Source: Candidatus Omnitrophota bacterium | GTDB lineage: Bacteria; Omnitrophota; Gorgyraeia; JABMRJ01 | Length of the DNA: 35,825 nucleotides | NCBI GenBank assembly: GCA_016783555.1 | Contig: JADHWH010000015.1 | Location: 1-35,825, forward strand | Direction of reading: 5' to 3' | In this document: positions 12,539 through 27,054 of the stretch, in pieces | How positions within the stretch are numbered: position 1 is the stretch's first letter | Layout of the letters: each line of letters begins with the position of its first letter | Position numbers and translations under genes: made by a program | The notes under the pieces: model-generated | Told to the model about the DNA's origin: nothing | Seen by the model: the letters and a program-made list of their open reading frames with translations, nothing else | The model's database searches: none

Positions 12539-12598
12539 ATATGAACCCCGTTAGACCTCATGAGAGGTCAGCGGGATGAGGAGGTCTAACGGGGTGAA
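12539..12598 (+). repeat. Palindromic translation-initiation element, copy 1 (ribBA)
   Basis: Perfect 15-bp arms 12545-12559 / 12581-12595; flanks identical to copy 2 (21 nt on the left, 20 nt on the right). Confidence 0.9.
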
Positions 12599-26036: not shown

Positions 26037-26985
26037 AATAATAGAGACGATAGAAAAGTATAACAAATACCTTATTGTGTCCCACGTAAACCCCGAAGGC
26101 GATTCACTGGGCAGCCAGTTTGCCCTAAAGGGGCTCCTCAGCAAACTGGGCAAAGAGAGCGTGATAGCCAACGAGGCCGAACCAGCGGAGCTGTACGAAT
26201 TTCTCGATATCAATGACGACATCATTACAGATATTAAGAAAAAGATTGATTATAAAGCGATCATTGCATTGGACTGCCCCGTTATTAAGAGGGTCGGCAG
26301 GGCAAAGAAGTTTTTTAAGAAAGATAAGATTTTGATAAATATAGACCACCATATATCAAATACAAATTTTGGGGATGTGAACTGGGTCGAACCTTATACG
26401 AGTTCCTGCGGCGAGATGGTCTATGAATTATACAAGGCATTTAATGTGCCGATAGATTACAGGTCCGCGCTCTTTTTGTATGTCGCTATTATTACAGACA
26501 CGGGAAGTTTTGCTTACGAAAATACATCTTCCAGGACGCATGCCATAGTCGCGGAATTAATAGATAGGGGATTAAAACCCAATCTTATCTATCAGAAGCT
26601 TTATGAGAATAGAACCGCATCGGAAGTCAAGCTCTTAAAGGATGCGCTTTCCACCATCAGGTTTGCTAAAGATGAAAAGATCGCTTATATGTACGTGACA
26701 AAGAGCATGCTCGACAGATATAATCTTGACCTGGATGTTACAGAGGGGTTTGTGAATTACGCCCGGTCTATAAACGGTGTTAAGGTGGCGATGATATTTT
26801 TGCAGAACCCGTCAAATGAGAAGCGGATAGGCATAAGTTTCAGGTCTAAGGGGGAAGTGGATGTAGATAAGCTTGCCTCGTTGTTCGGAGGCGGCGGACA
26901 TAAGAACGCCTCCGGCTGTGTACTCAGCGGCGACCTTAAGAAGGTAATAAAGAAAGTGGTGGATACGGTTACCAGGAGCATATGA
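26023..26985 (+). CDS. nrnA: DHH/DHHA1 phosphoesterase, NrnA-like
   Basis: VSHVNPEGDSLGSQ, ALDCP, NIDHHISNTNFGD, TDTGSFAYENT, GGGGHKNASGC. Confidence 0.93.
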   Translation: MVKSEIIETIEKYNKYLIVSHVNPEGDSLGSQFALKGLLSKLGKESVIANEAEPAELYEFLDINDDIITDIKKKIDYKAIIALDCPVIKRVGRAKKFFKKDKILINIDHHISNTNFGDVNWVEPYTSSCGEMVYELYKAFNVPIDYRSALFLYVAIITDTGSFAYENTSSRTHAIVAELIDRGLKPNLIYQKLYENRTASEVKLLKDALSTIRFAKDEKIAYMYVTKSMLDRYNLDLDVTEGFVNYARSINGVKVAMIFLQNPSNEKRIGISFRSKGEVDVDKLASLFGGGGHKNASGCVLSGDLKKVIKKVVDTVTRSI

Positions 26986-27054
26986 ACCCCGTTAGACCTC
27001 TAGCGGGAAGTAAAACTCACGAGTTCTAATAGATAGGAGGTCTAACGGGGTGAA
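26980..27054 (+). repeat. Palindromic translation-initiation element, copy 2 (truB)
   Basis: Perfect 15-bp arms 26986-27000 / 27037-27051 identical to copy 1; loop sequence differs. Confidence 0.9.

Follow-up and report, generated by a model that had tools for sequence, protein, structure and literature searches.

What is the palindrome that lies on the start codon of truB, and how can a gene interrupted at this very point still be started? The locus belongs to the window, i.e., the whole stretch of 35,825 nucleotides analyzed here, which is contig 11 of an Omnitrophota genome of 1.77 Mb in 78 contigs. A preliminary description had taken the palindrome for the second copy of one at 12539-12598, both having flanks of 21 and 20 nt in common around different loops. 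Both arms are found at the two places and the loops do differ; instead of being a second copy, the truB palindrome is one of about 70 insertions, and its 16-nt arm is found at 186 places in the genome at ≤2 mismatches (backwards-read control, 0). We consider it probable that it is a MITE-like non-autonomous copy of a minimal GIY-YIG mobile element that invades start codons.

Results

The insertion at truB and its empty site

At truB, the palindrome is an insertion of 64 bp (CCCCGTTAGACCT...AGGTCTAACGGGG; Table 1) placed between two copies of TGAA, which form a 4-bp direct repeat, and its 13-bp arms, CCCCGTTAGACCT and AGGTCTAACGGGG, enclose a 38-nt loop. The palindrome described earlier was correctly seen, except that the outer TGAA on each side is target duplication and not arm. 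The ATG reported to overlap the nrnA stop codon TGA (26983-26985) is present in the sequence and is the original start of truB. The insertion splits this ATGA overlap and truB now starts at a GTG, from which the N-terminus of TruB, MNGIVIVDKP, aligns with relatives starting at ATG. According to RNA fold prediction, the Shine-Dalgarno sequence (SD) and the start codon lie within a stem of about 16 bp, and at truB they are paired to the left arm.

Table 1. Coordinates of the features at truB and ribBA in the window.
Feature	Position	Strand	Basis
Original truB start codon ATG, overlapping the nrnA stop (ATGA)	26982..26984	+	sequence; G001 has an insert-free ATGA overlap
15-codon leader ORF MNPVRPLAGSKTHEF, opened by the old truB ATG	26982-27029	+	leader stop position
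TGAA target duplication at truB, left copy	26983..26986	+	flank comparison
Palindromic insertion at truB, 64 bp; 9-member unit family in genome	26987..27050	+	sequence
Left terminal inverted repeat of truB unit	26987..26999	+	unit extraction
Insertion-borne Shine-Dalgarno AGGAGG, 9 nt ahead of GTG	27035..27040	+	sequence
Right terminal inverted repeat of truB unit	27038..27050	+	unit extraction
New truB start GTG (last base of insertion plus TG of duplicated target)	27050..27052	+	sequence
TGAA target duplication at truB, right copy	27051..27054	+	flank comparison
TGAA target duplication at ribBA, left copy	12542..12545	+	flank comparison
49-bp copy in ribBA start codon; 10-member unit family; GTG start 12594-12596	12546..12594	+	unit extraction
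TGAA target duplication at ribBA, right copy	12595..12598	+	flank comparison

Comparison of the nrnA-truB junction among relatives, as the preliminary description had proposed, reveals an empty site. In G001, the closest relative compared (the only one of the same family, and of a different genus), nrnA and truB overlap in CTATGAACGG without insertion, and joining the truB flanks of the window without the insertion gives CATATGAACGGC, which is the arrangement of G001. The genome of G001 contains no arm at ≤1 mismatch, and the element is absent from truB in all 28 other relatives examined, the TruB N-termini aligning at the same residue. An ATGA-type nrnA/truB overlap is also present in G036 (L275).

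A family of short copies that occupies start codons

Four arm matches (≤3 mismatches) are present in the window, against 0.12 expected from shuffles. From the regions around copies in the whole genome 72 clusters were extracted, 71 of which were left after one contig overlap had been removed. The four bases before CCCC are identical to those after GGGG in 68 of the 71 copies, the repeated sequence being TGAA (49), TGAG (9), TGGA (2), TGAT, TAAA, TAAG, TTTA (2), TTCG, CTCG, or CCCG. As the flanking repeat covaries with the insertion site, it is a target duplication. The agreement also holds where the start codon itself fixes TG: at 61 of 62 such sites the two following bases match (about 65% estimated by chance from base frequencies). 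The ends are perfect over 13 bp in 58 copies, and in six further copies they are covariants of the type TCCC/GGGA.

Exactly at a start codon (A/TGAA type, the slash marking the insertion point) are 62 of the 71 copies, and nine are elsewhere. At such sites the left junction reads A (or G)/TGNN and the right junction GGGG/TGNN or GGGA/TGNN, with a long ORF downstream. All 49 copies flanked by TGAA on both sides are at starts, whereas of the 276 TGAA sites in the window only about 9 coincide with a gene start. At 48 sites ATG has been converted to GTG; TCCC...GGGA-ended variants restore ATG. The right arm provides AGGAGG, 9 nt and then the new GTG or ATG, and GGAGG is present in the right arm of 58 of 62 start-site copies versus 1 of 9 others (Fisher p 4e-7).

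Near-identical units are found at unrelated genes, with eight genomic relatives for the truB unit and nine for the ribBA unit, and there are tandem copies arranged as unit-TGAA-unit. Identical or near-identical units at unrelated genes together with tandem copies show dispersal. Mobility, one of two readings offered at first for conserved arms around divergent loops, is supported by site-varying duplications, near-identical units at unrelated genes, the empty site of G001, and the 28 relatives devoid of the element. The other reading, selection on the arms, is likely as well, because the right arm constitutes the new SD and start codon.

In the tandem pairs at L032, L036, L054, L075 (four sites), and C53:7141-7260 (L063 6544), the second units are the same or nearly the same 64 bp, following a GGGG-TGAT-CCCC joint, while the first units are all different from each other. 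Sharing of one second unit points to a composite or to a hot spot of recombination.

Is the start-codon pattern a matter of survival only? Insertion might be random, with only those copies tolerated that rebuild an SD and a start, or with those favored that raise expression. The right arm is indeed a good SD plus start, and other groups of full-length elements (see below) also accept TAAA and TTTA targets outside starts. Intergenic sites should be tolerable too, yet only nine of the 71 copies lie outside start codons, and full-length copies in other genomes choose start codons likewise. As judged from these sequences, the small number of intergenic copies would argue for a choice of start codons or for positive selection. 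Survivorship as the whole explanation is doubtful in our view, though it deserves serious consideration; it can hold alongside a start-codon-invading element, and targeting and selection may both act.

A regulatory role would be another reason for a hairpin at this position. The palindrome would then be a translation switch acting in cis, hiding SD and start until a leader ORF is translated, and would have been kept since it is useful and not since it is mobile. The predicted stem suits such a switch, as do leader ORFs that end at the new start by a GTGA or ATGA overlap (20 of 63 start-site rows) or at a TAA within the right arm (six rows); most others stop earlier. Right arms that persist alone in relatives also speak for it. 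However, varying target duplications, insertions away from starts, empty sites, tandem copies, and the GIY-YIG ORF described below require mobility, and six leader frames, the only ones to do so, continue in frame into the gene. A switch in place of mobility is therefore very unlikely, while both are compatible if the origin was mobile and regulatory use came later.

As to these lone right arms, GGAGGTCTAACGGGRTG forms the gene start region in relatives, for example of a nusG-like gene (L083, L084, L096, L097, L109, L117, and L120); these are read as decayed insertions that have been retained for initiation.

The same arms enclose a GIY-YIG gene

In several relatives, a small GIY-YIG gene ends directly ahead of AGGTCTAACGGGRTG. 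Seven GIY-YIG genes are encoded in the genome studied here, and one of them is located between the arms. This ORF of 92 amino acids (C76:22513-22791; L082 2014-2292) lies in the start codon of dnaE, with a guaB-like gene ahead of it, both names being taken from a reading of the translations. It reads MNPVRPPHWYYCYVL...LKNRLKGGLTG and begins with the left repeat (ATGAACCCCGTTAGACCT, encoding MNPVRP) and ends with the right repeat (GGAGGTCTAACGGGGTGA, encoding GGLTG and stop), so that the duplicated target supplies both its ATG, which is that of the host gene, and its TGA. It is the only full-length copy in this genome, compared with about 75 short ones. None of the remaining GIY-YIG genes of this genome is flanked by ends of the dnaE-site or truB type.

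Different inverted repeats, e.g., ACCCTTGACATTT and AAAGCGGGAA with CGCG flanks, occur around other GIY-YIG genes of this genome (L134, L135, and L138), which are possibly further families of a similar kind.

Full-length elements of 265-310 bp (about 270 bp), with terminal inverted repeats (TIRs) of about 13 bp and 4-bp duplications, exist at unrelated genes, both in Omnitrophota and in further phyla. In the phylum-wide set, paired repeats are found at 26 loci and equal 4-bp flanks at 17 of them, including nearly all of the close group, which sits at start codons, for example ahead of trpS (L140) and rpiB (L146). In a wider group, whose ends are CCCCGTTAGAGAT...ATCTCTAACGGGG, TAAA and TTTA serve as additional targets, and examples are found between pgk and tpiA (L153, L164); with TAAA or TGAA as target, the stop codon again comes from the target (..FLSLTG stop). 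Since the same arms enclose a GIY-YIG ORF and related full-length elements exist elsewhere, the palindromes of the window are best read as MITE-like derivatives. The similarity of short-loop families to the nuclease gene is mostly limited to the ends, and only for a 67-bp family does it extend further, to the 3' end of a full element; for the truB loop no convincing similarity to the nuclease gene is detected beyond the arm.

Values of dN/dS of 0.03-0.17 in most pairs, and of 0.34 in one close pair, indicate that the GIY-YIG ORF is under purifying selection. Residues Y13, Y24, G26, R34, H38, and E70 are invariant and N84 is nearly so, in agreement with a GIY-YIG catalytic site. PF01541 is the only Pfam domain, with neither a second domain nor a known transposase in the parent element, and the predicted fold (pLDDT 86) has its closest counterparts in UPF0213 and Slx1.

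These data bear on two other candidates for the mobilizing enzyme. A conventional transposase, e.g., of DDE type, might move a MITE family in trans, the GIY-YIG ORF being hitch-hiking cargo or a homing gene. Inverted ends combined with 4-bp duplications are a classical mark of DDE elements, short copies far outnumber the single full one, and some genomes with short copies, such as G014 and G023, lack a close GIY-YIG match. Yet at many unrelated sites and in various phyla the ORF fills the element from repeat to repeat, with no other gene seen in a survey non-exhaustive for DDE genes, and it evolves under purifying selection; we regard this alternative as unlikely. The chance that the units are REP or REPIN sequences mobilized by IS200-like Y1 transposases (RAYTs) of the genome is slight to the point of being negligible. 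Eight Y1_Tnp genes are present and the units are palindromic, dispersed, and hairpin-forming, but arms (≤2 mismatches) are near none of the eight, which largely refutes such an origin; they enclose GIY-YIG ORFs instead. Also, 4-bp duplications are present, which are not expected from IS200/IS605 chemistry.

Occurrence in other bacteria

Short copies with TGAA duplications are found on more than 100 contig stretches among the matches listed, and the phyla among these matches are Omnitrophota, Patescibacteria, Nitrospinota, Nitrospirota, Planctomycetota, Cloacimonadota, Elusimicrobia, Bacteroidetes, and Deltaproteobacteria. ATG precedes 51 of the 81 short copies read. In copy-carrying genomes of other bacteria, paired ends flank 16 of 30 GIY-YIG loci (mean for shuffled motifs, 0.07), nine of these 16 having equal 4-bp flanks. 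The ends of full elements in other phyla vary jointly (TACC/GGTA, TCCT/AGGA, CCCTGTTAAAT/ATTTAACAGGG). In phage (50,697 records) and plasmid collections the nuclease has no match at 1e-10.

At L304-L306 and L308-L315, left and right terminal bases change together (TACC/GGTA, CCCCGTGAGA/TCTCACGGGG), as if one end had been copied from the other. The insertion length is a multiple of three in 52 of the 81 copies read, and copies of such lengths, as in Patescibacteria (L175, L181, L188, L190, L219, and others), can become joined to the gene start in frame, giving N-termini of the type MNPVR...SNGV.

Discussion

Proposed mechanism

The observed anatomy, target duplications, start-codon bias, ORF conservation, and spread can be joined in the following scheme. 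The full element consists of two TIRs and a single GIY-YIG nuclease ORF and inserts between the A and the TGAA of a host start codon, duplicating 4 bp. The first target copy provides an ATG, together with the ribosome site of the host, for the nuclease or for a short leader peptide (MNPVRP...). The second provides the TGA stop of the nuclease and, with the final base of the insertion (G or A), the new GTG or ATG of the host gene, to which the right repeat brings AGGAGG. Ribosomes coming from the old ATG would open the hairpin and move to the new start or re-initiate there, a coupling that the end positions of the leader ORFs suit, and we propose that expression of the host gene is kept up in this way.

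The weakest point of the scheme is our inference that the nuclease itself is the mobilizing enzyme. Slx1, a relative by fold, acts on branched DNA by cutting it, and for this reason the GIY-YIG protein probably sees the palindromic ends as branched DNA; it may cut TRAR-like targets with a 4-nt stagger, joining being carried out by the enzyme or by host repair. Against self-mobilization counts that GIY-YIG proteins are known as nucleases and not as strand-transfer enzymes. We know of no transposon class in which a GIY-YIG nuclease is the sole enzyme and is combined with terminal repeats and target duplications, and searches of the open-access literature (GIY-YIG with TIRs or target duplications, start-codon insertion, palindromic elements, arm letters) returned no description of such an element.

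We lean, with some reserve, toward a new class of DNA transposon in which a lone GIY-YIG ORF has the terminal repeats as its end codons and the target copies as start and stop, in which start codons are targeted, and in which the invaded gene is given a new ribosome site and start. It would perhaps be the smallest autonomous one, with miniatures spread through Omnitrophota, Patescibacteria, and several other phyla. What appeared to be a twin palindrome at truB seems to be a miniature of an undescribed and very small start-codon GIY-YIG mobile element.

By mending the translation start that it breaks, an element in this niche would solve the usual cost of insertion in gene-dense genomes. If true, this would explain a very common palindrome and many unassigned small GIY-YIG genes in uncultured bacterial phyla, as well as the odd MNPVR...SNGV N-termini added to proteins by gene callers. 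A one-gene mobile element of about 270 bp could also be a simple tool to study or engineer insertion.

Comparison with known systems

UPF0213/YhbQ and Slx1 GIY-YIG proteins (PDB 1zg2, 4xlg, 7cq2) are the nearest solved relatives by sequence and fold, but they are not known as mobile elements with TIRs, whereas here the ORF is the element. The free-standing GIY-YIG homing endonucleases of T4-like phages (segA-G; PMC2988022) resemble it in that the nuclease gene lies between or overlaps host genes, and start/stop overlaps are described there too, e.g., UAAUGA at mobE, which encodes an HNH enzyme (PMC2988022). Homing of these phage enzymes proceeds by allele conversion and involves neither terminal repeats nor target duplications (PMC2988022). 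The present element shares the GIY-YIG catalytic residues with homing endonucleases, but has TIRs, duplications, and miniature derivatives, and many unrelated sites instead of a single cognate site with allele conversion.

Bacterial MITEs (RUP, ERIC, Correia/NEMIS; PMC10969869) are likewise short, with TIRs, target duplications, and a full-length parent with the same ends. All of these features and empty sites are found here, the autonomy of the parent being putative; the difference is that the parent encodes a GIY-YIG domain only and no DDE or other known transposase, and that the ends double as SD and start codon. Neither GIY-YIG nor the start codon is mentioned in the MITE review (PMC10969869). 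Rickettsia palindromic elements (reviewed in PMC10969869) are also palindromic insertions tolerated inside genes, sometimes in frame. Instead of in-frame insertions in ORF bodies, we find insertions at start codons, with few in-frame leaders, rebuilt initiation signals, 4-bp duplications, and an identified parent nuclease element.

REPINs and their RAYTs (PMC3116915) are similar in consisting of paired inverted short repeats that form hairpins, are high in copy number and non-autonomous, and are accompanied by a single-copy enzyme gene in the genome. Here, the enzyme is of GIY-YIG type and not a Y1 tyrosine transposase, its gene lies between the same ends, 4-bp target duplications are formed, and start codons are occupied instead of extragenic sites.

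Some longer copies of the family (L037 12125, L043 2074, L048 2038, and L073 12253) contain a nested second palindrome resembling TTGTAGGGCAGGTTTAAACCTGCCCTACAA, perhaps a REP of Y1 transposases that has been inserted into the element.
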